Shown here: piece after piece, positions 1,069 through 38,079 of the stretch
Position numbering within the stretch: the first letter of the stretch is position 1
Layout of the letters: each line of letters begins with the position of its first letter
From: Gaiellales bacterium
GTDB lineage: Bacteria; Actinomycetota; Thermoleophilia; Gaiellales; JAICJC01
Direction: 5' to 3'
Length of the DNA stretch: 64,000 nt
NCBI GenBank assembly: GCA_036403155.1
Contig: DASWRM010000067.1
Location: forward strand, 1 to 64,000
Program-made: the position numbers and the translations under genes
Notes under the pieces: generated by a model
The model's input: only the letters and a program-made list of their open reading frames with translations
Databases searched by the model: none
Told to the model about the DNA's origin: nothing

Positions 1069-1514
1069 TCGACGGCGTCGGGGTGTTCGCGCTTCGGCAG
1101 ATTCCCGACGAGCGCGGCAGGGTGATGCACATGCTGCGCGCCGACGACCCGCACTTCGAGGCGTTCGGCGAGATCTACTTCTCGACCGTCAATCCGGGTG
1201 CGATCAAGGGCTGGCACATCCATTCGCGGATGACGCTGAACTACGCCTGCGTCTCCGGGCAGGCCAAGCTCGTCCTCTACGATGACCGCGTGGACTCGCC
1301 CAGCCGCGGCGCGCTGCAGGAGCTCTTCATCGGTGACGCGAACTACGTGCTCGTGCGCATCCCGCCGATGGTCTGGAACGGCGTCAAGGGGATCGGCCAG
1401 TCCCCGGCAATGATCGCCAACTGCGCGAGCCATCCGCACGACCCCGAGGAGATCTCGCGGCTCGATCCCTTCTCACCGGAGATTCCGTACGACTGGTCAC
1501 TGAGGCACGGATGA
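1065..1514 (+). CDS. Cupin sugar 3,5-epimerase-like protein
   Basis: A 149-residue protein of the dTDP-4-dehydrorhamnose 3,5-epimerase (RmlC) cupin family. The central segment [18 protein letters not shown] matches the family strand that carries the metal-free catalytic histidine, followed by AKLVLYDDR and a [10 protein letters not shown] strand. It is shorter than classical RmlC (about 180 residues), as in the group acting on other nucleotide sugars. ATG at 1065 overlaps the TGA of the broken rfbF, and its own stop overlaps the next start, so it sits inside a tight operon. The likely substrate is a CDP-linked 4-keto sugar, inferred from neighbours only. Confidence 0.75.
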
Positions 1515-2746
1515 GCGGCCCGCGCGGCGAGTGCGACCTCGCGGTCGTCGGCGCCGGCATCCTCGGCCTGGCAACGGCGCGCGAGCTGCTCCGCCGCCAT
1601 CCCGACCTGACCGTCCAGGTGCTCGAGCGGGAGGGCTCGGTCGCGGCCCATCAGACCGGCCACAACTCCGGGGTGATCCATCAGGGCGTGTACTACCAGC
1701 CGGGGTCCCTGAAGGCCCGGCTGTGCGTCGCCGGCGCCCGGGAGCTCTACGACTACTGCGACGAGCGCGGCATCCCGGCCGAGCGCTGCGGCAAGGTGAT
1801 CGTCGCGACGGCCGCCGGTGAGCTGCCGCGGCTGGACGAGCTCGAGCGGCGCGGGACGGCGAACGGCGTGCCCGGTCTGCGGCGTCTGACCGCGGACGAG
1901 CTGCGCGGGGTCGAGCCGCATGCGCGCGCGATCGCCGCCCTGCACTCGCCGCAGACGGGCATCGTCGACTACTCGCGCGTTGCCGGGGCCTTCGCGGACG
2001 ACGTGGAGGCGGCGGGCGGCACGATCACGACGGAGTGCGGGGTGACCGGCATCTGGCCGACCGCGGGACGGCTCCGCCTCGTGCATCGGCGCGGCGAGAC
2101 GCGAGCCCGCCATGCAATCTTCTGCGCCGGGGGGTGGTCGGACCGGCTGGCCGTGATGGCCGGGGGCAGTCCCGACCCGCGCATCGTCCCGTTCCGGGGC
2201 GCGTACCGGCGCCTGAGGCCGGAGCGACGCTCGCTCGTCCGCGGAATGATCTATCCGGTGCCGGATCCCGAGCTGCCGTTCCTCGGCGTCCATCTGACCA
2301 AGCGGATCGACGGTGAGGTGCTGATCGGCCCGAGCGCGCTCCTGGCGCCCGCGCGGGACGCGTACGAGCTGTTGCGCCTGGCGCCCGACGACGTGCTGTC
2401 CACGCTGACCTGGCCGGGCACCTACCGGATGGCGCGGCGGTTCTGGCGGACCGGCGTCGACGAGATGCGCCACCTGCTGCCCGGCGGTTCGTTCGTGGGG
2501 GCTGCCGCCCGGTTCGTGCCCGAGTTGCGCAGCGGTGACGTGACCGCCGGCTTCGCTGGGGTGCGGGCTCAGGCGGTCGGGCGCGACGGCCGGCTGGTCG
2601 ACGACTTCGTCTTCTCGCACACCGAGCGCGCCCTGCATGTCCGCAACGCGCCCTCGCCGGGCGCCACGTCCTCGCTCGCCATCGCCCGGTACATCGCGGA
2701 CGAGGCGCAGCGCACCTTCGACCTTCCCACCACCACCTCGTCCTGA
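1511..2746 (+). CDS. lhgO: LhgO-type FAD-dependent 2-hydroxyacid oxidase
   Basis: A 411-residue DAO-superfamily flavoprotein. The N-terminal dinucleotide-binding motif is VVGAGILGLATARELL, followed by TGHNSGVIHQGVYYQPGS, characteristic of L-2-hydroxyglutarate oxidase (LhgO/YgaF). The conserved mid region LHSPQTGIVDYSRVAGAF and a C-terminal APSPGATSSLAIA FAD segment are also present. LhgO oxidises L-2-hydroxyglutarate to 2-oxoglutarate, passing electrons to the membrane quinone pool in Escherichia coli. Here it lies within a nucleotide-sugar operon (start overlaps the preceding stop), so an oxidation of another alpha-hydroxy acid or sugar acid is possible. Family assignment is firm; substrate is not. 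Confidence 0.82.
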   Translation: MSGPRGECDLAVVGAGILGLATARELLRRHPDLTVQVLEREGSVAAHQTGHNSGVIHQGVYYQPGSLKARLCVAGARELYDYCDERGIPAERCGKVIVATAAGELPRLDELERRGTANGVPGLRRLTADELRGVEPHARAIAALHSPQTGIVDYSRVAGAFADDVEAAGGTITTECGVTGIWPTAGRLRLVHRRGETRARHAIFCAGGWSDRLAVMAGGSPDPRIVPFRGAYRRLRPERRSLVRGMIYPVPDPELPFLGVHLTKRIDGEVLIGPSALLAPARDAYELLRLAPDDVLSTLTWPGTYRMARRFWRTGVDEMRHLLPGGSFVGAAARFVPELRSGDVTAGFAGVRAQAVGRDGRLVDDFVFSHTERALHVRNAPSPGATSSLAIARYIADEAQRTFDLPTTTSS

Positions 2747-28783: not shown

Positions 28784-29530
28784 TCAGCTGTCGCGCCGGC
28801 CGCCCAGGCGGCTCGAGAGCACGGTCGTCTGCGCGCGGCTCTCTGTCAGTGCGGCGACGACCTCAGGCTTGCGCTGATCCTCGGTGCCGCCCGCCGCGTC
28901 GACGGCAGCGAGGGCGGAGATGGTGCGCCGGTCGCCGTCGGCGATCTCGGTGATCTCGCAGCCGGCCCGGTAGCGGCCGTACGGCGCCGGGTCGAGCCGC
29001 ACCACACGCGCCTCCGGGTGCATCTGACGGCCCTCGAGGTGGAACGCCAGCCGGACGAGGTCCCCGGGGTCGAGCTCCTTCTGGGTGACGAACGCGCACC
29101 CGGTGGCCGAGATGTCGACGAGCCGGACGTCGAGCTGCGTCTCGCGGGGAAGGGTGCGGCAATACCGGACGGACACGCGGGCGGGCATCGAGACCGCCAT
29201 GCGCGGCGATGCCCGACGCGCCTTGCGGTGCCGAACGCCGCTCACGGCCAGGTGGACGAGCGCCTCCGACACGCTCTGAAAGTAGTGCTCGACCACCTCC
29301 AGCTCCACCTCGTAGCGGCCGCGGTCGGGGTAGAACACGCGCGCGAGCAGGTGCAGGTCGTTGCGGACCGCGCCGCGCGGCGCCTGCGCGAGCAGCAGGC
29401 CGTCCTGCCCGTTCTCGAGCGTGAGCGGGAAGCAGCCGCCGTCCTCGGACAGCACGTCGATCGTGTCCGGCAGCTCCGGCAGCACGCCGAGCGCCAGCGT
29501 CAAGAGGTCTTCGCGGGTCGGTTGCGCCAT
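28784..29530 (-). CDS. PilZ-domain c-di-GMP effector (YcgR-like)
   Basis: A 248-residue two-domain protein. Residues about 1-110 form a YcgR-N/PilZN-like beta domain (LPDTIDVLSEDGGCFPLTLENG, then FYPDRGRYEVELEVVEHYFQ). The PilZ part has the RRASPRMAVS stretch (RxxxR type), then VRLVDISATGCAFVT (D/NxSxxG type) and a YRAGCEITEI strand. These are the c-di-GMP contacts of the family, though the first arginine motif is loose. A paralogue lies at 30040-30783 with the same architecture. Likely partner unknown; pili or envelope machinery are candidates. Confidence 0.8.
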   Translation of the reverse strand: MAQPTREDLLTLALGVLPELPDTIDVLSEDGGCFPLTLENGQDGLLLAQAPRGAVRNDLHLLARVFYPDRGRYEVELEVVEHYFQSVSEALVHLAVSGVRHRKARRASPRMAVSMPARVSVRYCRTLPRETQLDVRLVDISATGCAFVTQKELDPGDLVRLAFHLEGRQMHPEARVVRLDPAPYGRYRAGCEITEIADGDRRTISALAAVDAAGGTEDQRKPEVVAALTESRAQTTVLSSRLGGRRDS

Positions 29531-29615
29531 GGTGCAGGTGGCTACATCGGCGTTCGGCGTGCGGGCCTGAAGCGGGTTTCGCCGGACGACACCGGGGTGT
29601 AGGCTGCGACGAGCC

Positions 29616-30039: not shown

Positions 30040-30783
30040 TCAGGTGTCGTACCGGCGCGCCCGGCGCGTCGCCAGGCTCTGCTGCTTCCGGGCCGCCGCC
30101 AGCCGCTCCAGCATCTCCGGGTCGCGCTCCGCGGCTGAGCCCTCGGCGCCGTAGGTGCGCGCGATCTCCGCGAGCCGGTAGCGGTCTGCCTCGAGGATCG
30201 TCGTGATCTCACCGCCGACGCGGTTGCGCCCGTAGACGGCGGGGATCGTCCGCACGACACGGAGCTCGAAGCGCAGCGGCCTGCCCTCGACCGAGGTCTC
30301 CACCTCGACCAGGTCGCCCTGCGAGAGACGCCGCTCGGTGACGAACGCAGCGCCGGTGGGGGAGACGTCGGCCAGGCGGACGTCGAACAGCTCGTCACGC
30401 TCGTGATTCTGGGCGTACAGGATCCTCGCGGACGCGAGCTCGGCGAGGTGCGCGCGCTGGGCGCCGCGCTCGGCGTCGCGCTGGTCGAGCGAGACGACGT
30501 TCAGGTGCAGCAGCAGGTCGTCGCCGGACTGGAAGTACGTGCGCAGCACCTCGAAGCGGATGTCCCAGCCCTCGCCGCCGTCGTCGCGCAGCCGCGCCTC
30601 CAGCTGGAGCCCGTTGCGGACGAGCGCGCGGGCGCCGTAGGCATAGATCAGGTTCCCTTCGATGGCCGCGAGCGTCATCGAGAAGCTCCCGCCCTCGGCG
30701 GAGATGACGTCGATGGAGCACGGGAGGGGAGGGAGCAGGCTGAGAGCGGCCCGCACCGTCTCGCTCGGCTTGATCGGATACAT
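30040..30783 (-). CDS. PilZ-domain c-di-GMP effector, second copy
   Basis: A 247-residue paralogue of the protein at 28784. The N-terminal region (LPCSIDVISAEGGSFSMTLA, then RFEVLRTYFQSGDDLLLHLN) parallels the first copy; the PilZ region has FDVRLADVSPTGAAFVTERR and GRNRVGGEITTI. An arginine cluster (RDAERGAQRAHLAEL) precedes it, but a clean RxxxR is less clear than usual, so nucleotide binding needs testing. The C-terminal 40 residues are helical and charged. Probably arose by duplication with the zinc-ribbon gene in between. Confidence 0.75.
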   Translation of the reverse strand: MYPIKPSETVRAALSLLPPLPCSIDVISAEGGSFSMTLAAIEGNLIYAYGARALVRNGLQLEARLRDDGGEGWDIRFEVLRTYFQSGDDLLLHLNVVSLDQRDAERGAQRAHLAELASARILYAQNHERDELFDVRLADVSPTGAAFVTERRLSQGDLVEVETSVEGRPLRFELRVVRTIPAVYGRNRVGGEITTILEADRYRLAEIARTYGAEGSAAERDPEMLERLAAARKQQSLATRRARRYDT

Positions 30784-32274: not shown

Positions 32275-34215
32275 CTAGGCCGCGACGGGCGCGTCCGCGG
32301 TGCTCAGCCCGGCCTCGGTGCCTTCGCGGATGGCCTCCTCGAACGACCGCGGACCGAGTGCGTCCCCAACCCGGACAACACTCGCGCCCGCCTCGACGAG
32401 CGCCTCATACAGGTCTCCGCCGGCCGCTCGGCGGCCCTCGTTCGCGACCACGGTATCGAAGCCGTCGAGCGTGACCTCTCGATCGGAGAACACGTTGCGG
32501 AAGCGAGCCCGCCCGTCCTCGACGGCGACGAGTCTCAGGTGGTGCACCAGCTCGACACCCGCCTCGTCGAGGCGCGCCAGGTACATGTTGCGCTGGTACT
32601 GGTGCACGCCCTCCCCGAACGCCACGGCGCTCGTCACCAGCTGCACCTGCCGGCCCGCCGCGGTCAGCTGCTCCGCGAGCGCCAGACCGGTCCAGTCGCC
32701 GCCCCAGTCGTAGAGCAGGACGCGGTTGCCCGTGGGAGCCCCCGCAAGCACGTCCCAGGCGCCCAAGGCCCCCTGGATACCGGCATCGTGCGCGACCGCC
32801 CCGGTCGCGACGACCACGCGGTCCGGGCGTTCGCCGAGCACCGACTCCGCCGTCGCCTCGACGCCGAAGTGGACGGCTGCGCCGGACAGCCAGCCCTCGG
32901 CGGTCGCGATCAGCCCGCGAGCGATCTCGGCGTGGCCGGGCGCATCCGCGGCCAGTCGCATCTGGCCGCCGGCCGCGTCCGCGCGCTCGAGCACCACGAC
33001 GGTGTGTCCCTGCGCCGTCGCGCACCCGGCCGCCGCGGCGCCCGCCGGGCCGGCCCCGATCACCACGACCCTCGCCGGCCGCGACGCACGTGCCGGCCGC
33101 GGCAGCGTCCGCTCGTACCCGGTCCACGGGTTGATCGTGCACGCGATCGGAATTCCGGCGTGATAGTGCCCGATGCAGCCCTGGTTGCAGCCGATGCACG
33201 TGGTGAACGGCTCGCCGGCGGCCGCGCTGCGCGGCATTGCCGGATCCGCGATCAGCGCGCGGGTCATCCCGCACGCGTCGCAGTCGCCGCGGGCGATCAT
33301 CGCGTCGCCGTCGGCCGGGTCGACGATCCGGCCCGTCGCGATCACCGGCACGTCCACCGCCGCCTTCATGCGGCGGGCGAACCCTGCAACGGCGTTGTGC
33401 GCGACGGGCACCGGCGGGACGATCCAGCTCGAGCCGCGGTAGGTGGAGGAGGCGCCGAGCGCGACGGAGAGGTAGTCGATCAGGCCGTCGCCGGACAGAC
33501 GTGATGCAGCTTCGGTGAGCTCCTCGTCGGTGTTGCCGTCCCAGGAACCGCTCTCGTCGGTCAGGCGGCAGCCGACGATCCCCCCGCCGATTCCCTCGCG
33601 CATCGCCTCGCACGCCTCTCGCAGGAACCGCAGGCGGTTCTCGAACGACCCGCCGTACTCGTCGGTGCGGCGGTTCGCGTGCGGTGAGAGGAACTGCGTG
33701 GGGAGGTAGTCGAACCCGGCACAGACCTCGACCCCGTCGATGCCGCCCTGCGCGGCGAAGGCCGCCGCCTCGCGGTAGCCGTCCAGCATCTCCCGGATCT
33801 CGCGGCGCGTCAGCGCGCGCGGCTCGGTCTTGAAGCGGGCGCTGGGAATGCTCGACGGGGCGACGGCCGGAGGGCGGGGGGGCGATGCGATCACCTCGCG
33901 GCCGCCATGGAACAGCTGCACCGTCAACACCGTGCCGTGCCGGTGCACGGCGTCGGCCAGCCGCCGGTAGACCGGGACGATGCCGGGCAGGTAGCCGCCG
34001 ACGGTATGGGCCGTGAGCAGCCCGGTGTGGTGGATGGCGGTCGCCTCGATGCAGATCATGCCGGCACCGCCGCGCGCCCGCTCCTCGTGGTAGGCGATCA
34101 GATCATCGGTCGGCAGGTGGTCGTGCACCAGGCTGGTCTGGTGCGATGTCGACACGATCCTGTTTGGGAGGGTGACGGGGCCGATCGCGAGCGGCGAGAA
34201 CAGGTGGTCGAGCAT
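32275..34215 (-). CDS. NADH:flavin oxidoreductase / 2,4-dienoyl-CoA reductase family
   Basis: A 646-residue fusion of an Old Yellow Enzyme TIM barrel (1-350) with a pyridine-nucleotide-disulfide oxidoreductase-like half. The barrel carries FKTEPRALTRREIREM, DGVEVCAGFDYLPTQFLSP (FMN and substrate loop) and ATGRIVDP. A 4Fe-4S cysteine set lies at CIGCNQGCIGHYHAG...ACTINP. The second half has VVVIGAGPAGAAAAGCA for FAD. Relatives reduce dienoyl-CoA, amines or proline betaines. ATG 34215 is 6 nt after TAGAGT. It is separated from the riboswitch gene only by its own promoter. Confidence 0.88.
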   Translation of the reverse strand: MLDHLFSPLAIGPVTLPNRIVSTSHQTSLVHDHLPTDDLIAYHEERARGGAGMICIEATAIHHTGLLTAHTVGGYLPGIVPVYRRLADAVHRHGTVLTVQLFHGGREVIASPPRPPAVAPSSIPSARFKTEPRALTRREIREMLDGYREAAAFAAQGGIDGVEVCAGFDYLPTQFLSPHANRRTDEYGGSFENRLRFLREACEAMREGIGGGIVGCRLTDESGSWDGNTDEELTEAASRLSGDGLIDYLSVALGASSTYRGSSWIVPPVPVAHNAVAGFARRMKAAVDVPVIATGRIVDPADGDAMIARGDCDACGMTRALIADPAMPRSAAAGEPFTTCIGCNQGCIGHYHAGIPIACTINPWTGYERTLPRPARASRPARVVVIGAGPAGAAAAGCATAQGHTVVVLERADAAGGQMRLAADAPGHAEIARGLIATAEGWLSGAAVHFGVEATAESVLGERPDRVVVATGAVAHDAGIQGALGAWDVLAGAPTGNRVLLYDWGGDWTGLALAEQLTAAGRQVQLVTSAVAFGEGVHQYQRNMYLARLDEAGVELVHHLRLVAVEDGRARFRNVFSDREVTLDGFDTVVANEGRRAAGGDLYEALVEAGASVVRVGDALGPRSFEEAIREGTEAGLSTADAPVAA

Positions 34216-34239: not shown

Positions 34240-34668
34240 TCAGCCCCGTTGCCAGACCAGGCCCTGATGCGTCCAGGACGCGGAGGCGAGTACGGCGCGC
34301 ATCTGCGCGGGAAGGTCGGCACCGGGCTCGACCGGCGCGCCGCGGAGCGTGCCGCGGCGCACGAGCAGCCCGCGCAGCTCCGCGGCGGTTGGCCGGCCGG
34401 AGATGTTCGTCCAGAGCTGGCTCGGCCGTCCGGCGTCGTCGACGACGAGGACGATGACGGGGCGGACGGTGAACTTCACTGCCACCGTGGCGGCACTGCC
34501 CCCCGCAGCGTCCACCGTCCGCAACCCGTATCGATTCGGATCGATTCGCGCTGCCGAGGTGCCTATCCCCGGAAGGGCGAGCGCGGTGGCGATCGTGATC
34601 GCCGCCGCTCCAGTGAGCACCGCCTTCGCCGGCCGCCTGCTCTCGCGAGGTTCGCGGCCGCCGTCCAT
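34240..34668 (-). CDS. Small exported protein under a c-di-GMP riboswitch
   Basis: A 142-residue protein: basic N-terminus, one hydrophobic segment (AVLTGAAAITIATALALPGI), then a soluble domain with VKFTVRPVIVLVVDDAGRP, SQLWTNISGRPTAAELRGLL and ASASWTHQGLVWQRG. No family recognised. ATG 34668 is chosen because it lies immediately downstream of the GEMM-I aptamer; the open frame continues upstream to 34779 but that part is the RNA element itself. No clear ribosome site precedes the ATG, so the riboswitch could act on translation or on mRNA start. An internal GTG (34620) is possible. Confidence 0.55.
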   Translation of the reverse strand: MDGGREPRESRRPAKAVLTGAAAITIATALALPGIGTSAARIDPNRYGLRTVDAAGGSAATVAVKFTVRPVIVLVVDDAGRPSQLWTNISGRPTAAELRGLLVRRGTLRGAPVEPGADLPAQMRAVLASASWTHQGLVWQRG

Positions 34669-34674
34669 GTGCGG

Positions 34675-34762
34675 GTCCCGGTTTCGGTAGCCGAGCCGTC
34701 TCCGTGGGAGACCTCTTGCTTTGCGCCCCCACCTCACGGTGGGTTTGCCGTTTTCGATCCGT
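34675..34762 (-). promoter_or_regulatory. Cyclic-di-GMP-I (GEMM-I) riboswitch
   Basis: On the minus strand the conserved order of the class is present: GGCAAACC (34749-34742), stem CCCACC closed by GNRA loop GTGA onto GGTGGG, then GCGCAAAGC (GCAAAGC 34724-34718), a second stem GTCTCC-CAC-GGAGAC inside GAG/CTC, and finally GGCTACCG (34692-34685). These are the nucleotides shared with the Vibrio Vc2 aptamer. The position equal to Vc2 G20 is G, favouring c-di-GMP over the 3',3'-cGAMP variant. It ends about 10 nt before ATG 34668. No expression platform with a clear terminator is visible. Confidence 0.85.
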
Positions 34763-34972
34763 ATCTCCATCATCGTCAATACCTACGAGTGTCTTCGTCG
34801 CCCGAAGGGTGGCCCGGAGTCCCCGGAATGGGGTATCCGCACGCCGGCTACGGGCGGCACTTCCCCCGATCGGGTCATGAATTCGGCGGGCAATCGGACG
34901 ATGCCTTGGCACCTTCGTCGGTTTCCCGTCCGTGCGGGTGCCGTCGATCCGAACCCCCGTAGGAGGAAGTGC
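34763..34972. other. Divergent promoter region and structured leader
   Basis: Intergenic region between the riboswitch (minus) and the surface-protein operon (plus). On the plus strand it contains several hairpins, such as GACGATGCC/GGCACCTTCGTC near 34898-34925, and ends in an excellent ribosome site AGGAGGAAG before ATG 34973. I could not match it to a known riboswitch. It probably holds the promoters for both directions. Confidence 0.45.
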
Positions 34973-35485
34973 ATGTCCCGCACCCGCATTGCGCTGGTGG
35001 GCGCCCTCGTGGCTGCCATCGCCGCTGTCTCGGCCGTCTCGGCGCTCGCCGCGCCGCCGAGCAGCGACTCGCAGAACCAGACGGTGAAGTTCACCAACCG
35101 TGCCTCCGTGCAGCTCACCCTCGACACGCCGACGGTGGACTTCGGCAACGTCGACCCGCTGACCACCTACTCGGCGGCGGGCGGCAAGGCCAACGTCAAG
35201 GCGAACGCCGGCTGGTCGCTGGCGATGACGGCTCCGGCGAACTTCACCGAGAGCGGCGCCGGCACGAACACGATCCCGATCGGGCGGCTGTCGCTGGGCA
35301 TCAACGGAGGCGCGTACTCGGCCGTCGCCACCGGTCCGACCGCGATCTCCAGCGGCGCGAAGACGACCAATGCCGGTACCGACACCACGCTGGCATACCA
35401 GCTCGCCCTGCAGTTCGGCGACAACCCGAACACCGCGGGACAGAACTACCAGGCCGTGCTGCAGTACACGGCCACCACGCCGTAG
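34973..35485 (+). CDS. Secreted surface protein, beta-sandwich (camelysin/TasA-like size)
   Basis: A 170-residue exported protein: signal peptide 1-24 (IALVGALVAAIAAVSAVSALA), then one beta-rich domain that starts VQLTLDTPTVDFGNVDP and ends NYQAVLQYTATTP. There are no Cys and no anchor. The same domain forms the C-terminus of the protein encoded at 35592 (VDFGGVDP... TSLTYTATTP), so the two are related. ATG 34973 has AGGAGGAAG. A strong hairpin follows. In context (DUF916-like protein downstream) it looks like a structural subunit of a surface fibre or adhesin. Confidence 0.7.
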   Translation: MSRTRIALVGALVAAIAAVSAVSALAAPPSSDSQNQTVKFTNRASVQLTLDTPTVDFGNVDPLTTYSAAGGKANVKANAGWSLAMTAPANFTESGAGTNTIPIGRLSLGINGGAYSAVATGPTAISSGAKTTNAGTDTTLAYQLALQFGDNPNTAGQNYQAVLQYTATTP

Positions 35486-35510
35486 CCTCGCTCCCCCGAG
35501 GTCTGCGATC

Positions 35511-35542
35511 GCGGGGCGGGCTCCTCCGGGAGCCCGCCCCGC
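35511..35542 (+). terminator. 14-bp GC hairpin between surface genes
   Basis: Arms 35511-35524 (GCGGGGCGGGCTCC) and 35529-35542 are exact complements with loop TCCG, 25 nt after the stop at 35485. It would end most transcripts of the first surface gene and let part read on into 35592, giving unequal amounts of the two proteins. Confidence 0.7.
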
Positions 35543-35591
35543 GGGCGTCCCGGGCAGGAATCAGGGCGTCCGCTTTGAACCACTCGGCGAG

Positions 35592-37037
35592 GTGTTCCAC
35601 CAGCGGACTCGAGCGGCTGCATGCGCCATTGCTGTGGCGGGCGCGTGCATGCTCGCACCCGCGTACTCGCGTGCCGCAAACCTGATCGCAAACCCGGGGT
35701 TCGAAACCTCCGGAGCGTCGGGCACCGCGTTCTCGGACACGCTGCCCGACCTGGCGGCATGGCAGGTGACGTCGGGCAACTACACGCTGAGCGGTGGCGT
35801 GCTCACGTCGCAGGGCTTCGGGCCGTCCACGGATCTCGCGGTCGTCCGCAACTCACAGGACTACCAGGACGGCGTGTTCACGGTTGTGACGACGCCGCTT
35901 ACCGTGGCCCCGCAGGAGACCGGAGGCGCCGTCGTGCGCTACCGGGACGGGTCGAACTTCTACCTGTGCGGGATCACGAAGAACTCCGTGGTCGTGCAGC
36001 GGCGGCTGAACGGGACGGATCTGGTGATCGCGAGCGCCGCGTACACCTCCGCGGTCGGCTCCGCCTACACGCTGACCGCGAGCGCCGCCGGGACGCAGAT
36101 CGGCTGCAAGGTGACCGGGCCGGGCGGAACGGCGACCGCGACCGCGTCCGACGGCACCTTCCCGAGCGGCATGATCGGCGTCGCGGCGATCAACTCGAAT
36201 CCTTCGCAGCTGCGCCAGATGAAGTTCGCACAGCCCGCCATGACCGCGACGCTGCCCCAGTCGTGGTCGTCTCTCGGAGCGCTCGCCGGGCGGCCGGGCC
36301 TCATCCCCGACCGGATCGCCCCGGCGAACGGCGGCTCCGCGTACATGCAGCTGTTCGGCGGCTCCGGGTCGTTCTCCGGCTCGACGCAGCAGACGTCGGT
36401 CGCCGTCGCCGCCGGCAGCGGCTACACGCTCACGGCCGCGATCCGGACCGACGCGGTGACCGGCTCCGCCAAGGTGCTTGCGGTCGAGCCGGACGGGACG
36501 ACCACGACGCTCGCAGGCGTGTCCGGGACCACCGGGTGGACGGTGTACTCGACGAGCTTCGTGACGCGGCCGACGACGACGCTGCTCACGATCCGGCTGC
36601 GGCTCGACGGCAGCGGGAGGGCGAGCTTCGACGACCTGAGCCTCGCTGTGACGCCGTCCGTCACCCTCTCGCTCTCAGCGTCGTCCGTGGACTTCGGCGG
36701 CGTCGACCCGATCTCGTCGCCGTTCGTGCTGGCGCCGGCTGTGACCGCCACGGTGACGGCGAACACCACCTGGTCGCTCTCGCTCACCGGGTCGGGCGAC
36801 TTCGCGGACGGCACCGGCAAGACGTTTCCGCTCTCGCAGCTCGGCTGGCGCCTGGACGGCAGCGGAGCGGCGTACGCCGCGGTGTCGACGAGCGCGCAGT
36901 CCGTGACCACCGGCGTCGCAAACACCCCGTCGGGTACCGCGAGCGGGATCGACTTCCGGCTCCAGGTGACCTACGCCGATCCCGTCTCGTCCCAGCCGTT
37001 CCAGACGTCGCTGACCTACACCGCCACGACACCGTGA
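35592..37037 (+). CDS. Large secreted protein with CBM-like start and TATTP domain
   Basis: A 481-residue exported protein from GTG 35592. Signal peptide: RAAACAIAVAGACMLAPAYSRA. Residues from 30 (NLIANPGFETSG) resemble the opening of carbohydrate-binding/jelly-roll modules; a second jelly-roll-like region lies around residues 215-355 (NGGSAYMQLFGGSGSFSG, ASFDDLSLAV). The last 110 residues are homologous to the protein at 34973 (SSVDFGGVDPISSP to TSLTYTATTP). The start is uncertain: no strong ribosome site; an ATG at 35649 would destroy the signal peptide. Likely a minor, tip or carbohydrate-binding subunit of the same structure. Confidence 0.7.
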   Translation: MFHQRTRAAACAIAVAGACMLAPAYSRAANLIANPGFETSGASGTAFSDTLPDLAAWQVTSGNYTLSGGVLTSQGFGPSTDLAVVRNSQDYQDGVFTVVTTPLTVAPQETGGAVVRYRDGSNFYLCGITKNSVVVQRRLNGTDLVIASAAYTSAVGSAYTLTASAAGTQIGCKVTGPGGTATATASDGTFPSGMIGVAAINSNPSQLRQMKFAQPAMTATLPQSWSSLGALAGRPGLIPDRIAPANGGSAYMQLFGGSGSFSGSTQQTSVAVAAGSGYTLTAAIRTDAVTGSAKVLAVEPDGTTTTLAGVSGTTGWTVYSTSFVTRPTTTLLTIRLRLDGSGRASFDDLSLAVTPSVTLSLSASSVDFGGVDPISSPFVLAPAVTATVTANTTWSLSLTGSGDFADGTGKTFPLSQLGWRLDGSGAAYAAVSTSAQSVTTGVANTPSGTASGIDFRLQVTYADPVSSQPFQTSLTYTATTP

Positions 37038-37047
37038 GGAGCAATCG

Positions 37048-38079
37048 ATGCGAAGACTGACCACCACCGCCGTGCTGGCTGCGGCGCTGCTCGTGGCCGG
37101 CTCGGCCGGCCCCGCGTCCGCCGCGAAGCTTGCGTCGATCTCGATCGGCGTCGCGCCGTCCAAGCTGCAGGCGAAGCTCCACCCAGGGCAGCTGTACACC
37201 ACCGAGGTGGACGTCTACAACAAAGGCAACGAACCCGTGGTGCTGGATGTCTTCCTCCAGGACTACACCATCTCGGCGGATTCGGCGGTCGCGTTCAAGC
37301 CCGCCGGGAGCCTGGCGGCGTCGGCAGCGCCGTGGTCGTCCCTCTCGAAACGTGTCCTGCGAATGCCGGCCCACAGCGACCACGGCGTCATCCTCACCGT
37401 TGATGTACCTGACAACGCGGCCCTCGGCACCCACACGCTGGCGGTGGTCTTCCGGTCGCGCGAGGTCAAGAGCAGCGGCAACGTGCAGTACCGGCCGGCG
37501 GTCGCGTCTCTGATGGCGGCGGGGGTCGCAAACCGCGACGGGACCGGCCTGGTTCTCCGCGGACAGGCGGTGACGCAGTCGGTCGACGTCGACTGGATCG
37601 GCCTCGGCGGCGTATGGCACTCGAGTGACAGGGCCGGCGCCGTGATGGACTGGCTGTTCCACCCCACGGTGACTGCGCATGTCGAGGTTCGCAACACCGG
37701 CAACACGTTCTTCAACATCATCCGGGGCGGTACGGACTTCAGCACGTCGTTCGCCGCAGGCGCGAGGAGCGGCCACGCGACGGCGCCCACGTACACGATC
37801 CTGCCCGATTCGGTGCGTACGCTGACGATGACGTGGAACCATGCCCCGCTGTTCGCGAAGGGGACGGCCGAGACGCGCATCTACTACAACGCCTCGTCCC
37901 ACCTGCCCGTGGTGCCCGCGAACTTCACGATCATCCCCTGGCACCTGATCACGGTTGCCGGGGTTCTGTTGGCGGCGATCCTGCTCTGGACGGTTCGGCG
38001 GCGCATCCGAAGGAGGGGCGGCCGCCGATCGTCGGCGTCGGCGCCGTCGCCATGGCTGGCACGGGGATCCGGAGTCTGA
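37048..38079 (+). CDS. DUF916-like membrane-anchored surface protein
   Basis: A 343-residue protein: signal peptide 1-26, an immunoglobulin-like domain beginning ISIGVAPSKLQAKLHPGQL, with TEVDVYNKGNEPVVLDVFLQDY and GTHTLAVVFRSREVKSSGNV, a second one with HVEVRNTGNTFFNI, then a transmembrane helix (WHLITVAGVLLAAILLWTV) and a basic tail RRRIRRRGGRR. The layout equals DUF916/DUF3324 proteins that work with WxL surface proteins in Firmicutes and with related fibre systems. GAGGAG precedes ATG 37048 by 6 nt. It ends the surface cluster and its TGA shares one base with the ftcD start. Confidence 0.78.
   Translation: MRRLTTTAVLAAALLVAGSAGPASAAKLASISIGVAPSKLQAKLHPGQLYTTEVDVYNKGNEPVVLDVFLQDYTISADSAVAFKPAGSLAASAAPWSSLSKRVLRMPAHSDHGVILTVDVPDNAALGTHTLAVVFRSREVKSSGNVQYRPAVASLMAAGVANRDGTGLVLRGQAVTQSVDVDWIGLGGVWHSSDRAGAVMDWLFHPTVTAHVEVRNTGNTFFNIIRGGTDFSTSFAAGARSGHATAPTYTILPDSVRTLTMTWNHAPLFAKGTAETRIYYNASSHLPVVPANFTIIPWHLITVAGVLLAAILLWTVRRRIRRRGGRRSSASAPSPWLARGSGV

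Follow-up and report, generated by a model that had tools for sequence, protein, structure and literature searches.

We propose that the c-di-GMP-I riboswitch aptamer on the minus strand of the window, that is, the whole stretch of 64,000 nt of DNA that was analysed, is probably the 5' third of an autonomous non-coding RNA of approximately 300 nt, which senses c-di-GMP and belongs to one family of the Thermoleophilia. The computed parts of this RNA are the aptamer, a conserved 3' domain linked to it, the loss of the open reading frame (ORF) behind the aptamer and two mutually exclusive pairings. From these parts we infer that it is transcribed as a separate RNA, switches in the cell and acts in trans. 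The features are given below in their 5' to 3' order on the minus strand.

34769-34801, minus strand: promoter-like blocks GCGACG (34801-34796) and GNCGATGAT (34777-34769), both conserved in five genomes
34754-34761, minus strand: CGGAUCGA, invariant predicted switching strand; 5' strand of the extended P1, or partner of 34544-34537
34682-34758, minus strand: c-di-GMP-I aptamer (G20, A47); RF03167 64.2 bits, RF01051 61.8 bits
34588-34603, minus strand: hairpin GGCGAU-CACG-AUCGCC; position kept, sequence replaced among relatives
34558-34565, minus strand: UAGGCACC, identical in five genomes; here the conserved 3' part begins
34537-34544, minus strand: UCGAUCCG, invariant partner of CGGAUCGA; alternatively able to pair locally, as a hairpin, with AAUCGA, which follows it
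34457-34529, minus strand: 3' domain; its covariance model R1 has credible matches in this family alone
34240-34668, minus strand: 142-codon ORF overlapping the RNA, unlikely to be the gene under regulation; frame interrupted by stops or frameshifts in each of the four relatives
32275-34215, minus strand: FMN-dependent oxidoreductase (Pfam Oxidored_FMN and Pyr_redox_2), the next gene on the same strand

A preliminary description of this DNA had recognised the conserved blocks of a GEMM-I aptamer and suggested a search with Infernal and the RF01051 model as a check. The minus strand does contain all of these blocks, and two Rfam models match at 34758-34682 above their cut-offs, namely c-di-GMP-I-GGC (RF03167; 64.2 bits, gathering cut-off 59, E 7.5e-13 with cmscan) and c-di-GMP-I (RF01051; 61.8 bits, gathering cut-off 35). 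Although RF03167 scores slightly higher, the signature base is canonical: the consensus of this model reads GCGAAGC, with a G at the A47 position, whereas the RF03167 alignment shows GCAAAGC and hence an A in the aptamer described here, which does not carry the signature of the GGC variant. The G20 equivalent is a G, as had been stated. A47 and G20 are the ligand-contact bases of the c-di-GMP-I riboswitch (PMC9049102). At the level of its sequence, the element is thus confirmed as a c-di-GMP-I (GEMM-I) aptamer. Because the bases that contact the ligand are canonical, c-di-GMP is its expected ligand. P3 had been regarded as unusually short; however, the aptamer measures 77 nt, compared with 76-84 nt in its closest relatives and 80 positions in the model. 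It is the single match to RF01051 in the 3.2-Mb Thermoleophilia genome. Class-wide the aptamer is common (164/399 genomes), and many of the copies whose flanks were read look like typical leaders of genes for pilins or exported proteins. c-di-GMP signalling is present in the genome, as it encodes 24 GGDEF domains and, 4-6 kb downstream of the RNA, two PilZ-domain proteins (window 30040-30783 and 28784-29536, both on the minus strand). At least one PilZ homologue is found near the RNA in all five family genomes.

The aptamer had been described as leaving almost no room for an expression platform. Instead, conservation extends for approximately 230 nt past the aptamer as structured RNA in five genomes, and one aptamer and one 3' domain are found together in every one of these family genomes, where the fold z-scores of the whole RNA range from -4.0 to -7.5. 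Between the two, a hairpin of 6-10 bp is kept at the same place in 5/5 genomes while its sequence is replaced (GGCGAU/AUCGCC, GCGGUGGUGA/UCACCAUCGC, GCGACGA/UCGUCGC and GCAAUGG/CCAUUGC). The MAFFT alignment did not align these replaced hairpins, which were tested by their position and by shuffling, with probabilities per genome of 0.067, 0.004, 0.017, 0.019 and 0.019. Upstream of the aptamer, the spacing between GCGACG and CGATGAT is nearly fixed at 19-20 nt in the five genomes, with variable sequence in between, and the distance of the -10-like block to the aptamer is that of the sigma28-like -10 of a sister family. The GCGACG and GNCGATGAT blocks may therefore function as a promoter. As the strict sigma28 pattern was found upstream of the RNA in 0/5 genomes of its own family, we do not claim sigma28 control for this family. 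The genome also encodes a second FliA/WhiG-type sigma factor (G000:C42:160985-161641, plus strand), which scores 192 bits and lies over the family cut-off, the main one scoring 293 bits on contig C50; this second factor might recognise the unusual promoter-like blocks.

In 5/5 genomes, the 3' domain follows the aptamer on the same strand after approximately 140 nt, within a conserved stretch that runs from UAGGCACC to CCCGU in each of them. It is predicted to fold into a 13-bp stem with an outward ACGGG/CCCGU extension, which closes a three-way junction with two hairpin arms, one of them bearing an invariant GGGGG loop; the sequence GCAGUG is duplicated in the domain. Standard pairs occupy 98.3% of the cells of the counted structure as compared to 26-64% in slid controls, and three base pairs of the outer stem are changed on both sides. 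This count of both-side changes was reached in 136/500 shuffles and the covariation score in 23/500, a control that is not decisive with five sequences; the support for the domain consists of these five sequences and, for covariation, of the three pairs. No credible R1 match was obtained outside the family in 129 genomes of the order, 399 of the class and 396 of the phylum, and an exact-pattern scan across 84,980 species gave matches on three contigs, each of which comes from a Thermoleophilia metagenome-assembled genome and from a family member. When 16 loci were compared with Rfam at E values up to 1, the aptamer alone was found and no match for the 3' domain. One R1 match in a genome of another family (G006, L049, 29.8 bits) was rejected, as it lies inside an apparent coding gene, and weak R1 matches on the opposite strand at the same place as the domain arise from the reverse complement of the long stem. 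Behind the 3' stem there is no tract of uridines, which makes the 3' end of the RNA a guess.

The two ends of this RNA might communicate through CGGAUCGA, which is located at the 5' edge of the aptamer and is identical in 5/5 genomes. This strand has two alternative partners: CGAAMCCG behind the aptamer, with which it makes an extended P1, and UCGAUCCG approximately 200 nt downstream, with which it makes 8 pairs. The minimum-energy fold contains 8/8 of the long-range pairs in all five genomes, and folds forced to contain P1 are 10.8-12.7 kcal/mol less stable in every one, the energies of 300-nt folds being rough; this difference is near the binding free energy expected at a KD of approximately 1 nM, as quoted for a c-di-GMP riboswitch (PMC3627812). 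The 3' domain folds identically in both states in 4/5 members. Covariation cannot test the long-range stem because both of its strands are invariant, and the invariance of CGGAUCGA fits a strand that is used twice. It is therefore plausible from these models that the choice of pairing partner constitutes a two-state switch.

Based on these predictions, we propose the following model. The RNA would carry the c-di-GMP-I aptamer in its 5' third and the conserved three-way-junction domain at its 3' end. As long as the ligand is absent, CGGAUCGA would be paired with UCGAUCCG and the RNA would be closed. As P1 draws on the same CGGAUCG strand, its stabilisation by bound c-di-GMP would result in the opening of the long-range stem and the release of UCGAUCCG. 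An RNA changing its shape in this manner could act away from the genes downstream of it, either via the 3' domain or by binding c-di-GMP itself.

The same anatomy could also belong to a long cis leader, in which the 3' domain would serve as an attenuator- or terminator-like platform for the FMN-dependent oxidoreductase and c-di-GMP would select between P1 and the long-range stem. An expression platform would be expected to show such a two-state pairing, and the oxidoreductase is the next same-strand gene and adjoins the RNA in 3/5 genomes, at a distance of 37-51 nt in two of them (L030 and L032) and 243 nt in the window. However, the RNA is unchanged in the other two genomes (L031 and L033), where a convergent metallophosphoesterase gene cuts the oxidoreductase off. 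The stop codon of the intervening gene, read directly at both loci (with a Pfam match for the L031 copy), is located at the 3' end of the RNA; because this gene ends right behind the RNA, these two genomes leave no downstream gene for cis control. Furthermore, a TANNNT motif precedes the oxidoreductase start codon by 6-8 nt in 4/4 contexts that were read, one of them behind the convergent gene (in the window, TAGAGT is followed after 6 nt by ATG), which suggests that the oxidoreductase likely has its own leaderless-type promoter. It also speaks against a cis leader that the 3' domain, as described above, folds alike in both states in most members. The divergent neighbour 5' of the RNA differs between the genera: in the genus of the window it is a surface-protein cluster, in the other genus a set of histidine-degradation genes. 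The RNA persists while its neighbours on both sides change and, therefore, an autonomous RNA is favoured over a cis leader, which we consider unlikely, albeit worth weighing. The divergent cluster (window 34973-38079, plus strand) encodes exported surface-type proteins, the last of which gives a weak match to WxL-interacting proteins, and it is found at this place in the window's own genus only. A role of the RNA as an antisense regulator of the divergent surface gene was rejected, as the two do not overlap and this gene is not the neighbour of the RNA in the other genus.

Alternatively, the RNA might be a sink of the merRNA type that merely holds c-di-GMP, with a 3' domain that protects the 3' end. 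Its anatomy is like that of the Bdellovibrio merRNA (PMC3627812), and the many GGDEF domains of the genome would be in line with such a role. A sink would, however, require extreme abundance, each RNA has one aptamer, and the invariant GGGGG loop and the GCAGUG repeats exceed what is needed for end protection, so that we regard this explanation as improbable.

The preliminary description had instead viewed the element as a minimal riboswitch controlling the translation of a 142-residue exported protein of no recognised family. An ORF indeed follows directly, with an ATG 13 nt after the aptamer (34668) and 142 codons extending to 34240; it is open in the window, its N-terminus contains a hydrophobic stretch, and Pfam assigned no family to the 141-residue translation. 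Control of this protein, on the other hand, found no support, as the frame is disrupted by stops or single-base indels (frameshifts) in all four other family genomes carrying the aptamer (L005 from the same genus and L002, L006 and L007 from the second genus), so that a frame open throughout the five genomes was not found. The 79-aa C-terminal half of the ORF has no match in these four genomes, and its single other match among 121 genomes (43% over 74 aa, E 1e-4) is to part of a predicted exported protein from another family. This weak homologue is located in G010 on contig C5, and no aptamer was found on that contig. The predicted exported protein at L055 (about 1492-2000, minus strand) has a C-terminal domain (approximately 43% over 74 aa) in common with the end of the ORF; the window copy of this domain is without a Pfam name. 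No Shine-Dalgarno sequence or other ribosome-binding site was found before the ATG, and the bases of the ORF are kept as RNA helices. The expectation that the leader would be found before orthologous genes fails for the 142-codon protein; it is the second RNA domain that accompanies the aptamer in the relatives. Judged from the frames, the conservation of the RNA is not owed to the ORF, which may be translated in the window's genome alone. Even with the many class aptamers that precede exported-protein or pilin genes in its favour, regulation of the 142-residue protein is thus very improbable, and an ORF right behind an aptamer is not necessarily the gene that is regulated.

Beyond the autonomous RNA of this family, aptamer-headed RNAs were seen in a sister family (G007, G010, G013, G016 and G019), where single aptamers (L003, L004, L008 and L013) or tandem aptamers (L014, L016 and L017) stand at the head of conserved stretches of 350-450 nt that are mostly non-coding. 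These stretches contain hairpins with exposed C-rich loops (GCCCUCCCCCC; CCUCCCCCCUCCCC) as well as end hairpins, and a possible very short ORF (MRRV... or MRCMWFTE...) lies behind the aptamer, preceded by a good ribosome-binding site. A sigma28-type pattern (YWA-N15-18-CCGAYA) was found upstream of 14/50 aptamer loci, compared with 0.33 expected from shuffles (for example at L003, L004, L008, L014, L069, L072 and L079); it precedes 7/13 loci of the sister family and 0/5 of the family described here. As a lead, this points to joint control of many of these riboswitch genes by c-di-GMP and a sigma factor of the motility type. More tentatively, and with considerable doubt, one might speculate that the Thermoleophilia use c-di-GMP-gated, trans-acting RNAs, with at least two families of shape-switching, aptamer-headed non-coding RNAs that regulate other RNAs or proteins: one with the GGGGG-loop domain and one, in the sister family, with C-rich-loop hairpins and partly behind sigma28-like promoters. 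If true, this would amount to a riboswitch-controlled small-RNA network instead of single cis switches.

Riboswitches that head a non-coding RNA have rarely been described. Our literature search found no papers on riboswitches in Thermoleophilia and, besides merRNA from Bdellovibrio bacteriovorus, no described example of a c-di-GMP riboswitch heading a non-coding RNA. The Rfam families RF01051 and RF03167 share with the present RNA the aptamer itself, for which both models score above cut-off, but the present RNA differs in having A47 instead of the G of the GGC model, an attached second RNA domain and no conserved coding gene in cis. Rli55 and EutX, non-coding RNAs with a B12 riboswitch, follow the principle of a riboswitch on a non-coding RNA (reviewed in PMC8079631), in which the downstream part is the output; however, they respond to another ligand, and no ANTAR-type paired hairpins were recognised in the present RNA. 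The closest likeness is to merRNA, a massively expressed attack-phase non-coding RNA of 445 nt, which holds a c-di-GMP riboswitch, has no conserved ORF and has been proposed to act as a c-di-GMP reservoir (PMC3627812). Both RNAs carry the c-di-GMP riboswitch on a non-coding RNA of several hundred nt, with no conserved ORF downstream and within a narrow phylogenetic range. The present RNA, for which we claim no sequence relation to merRNA, differs by its conserved 3' domain and by the long-range stem that competes with P1. It would add a second lineage, in which the RNA has a conserved output domain and a predicted two-state pairing, and would make the role of such RNAs directly testable.
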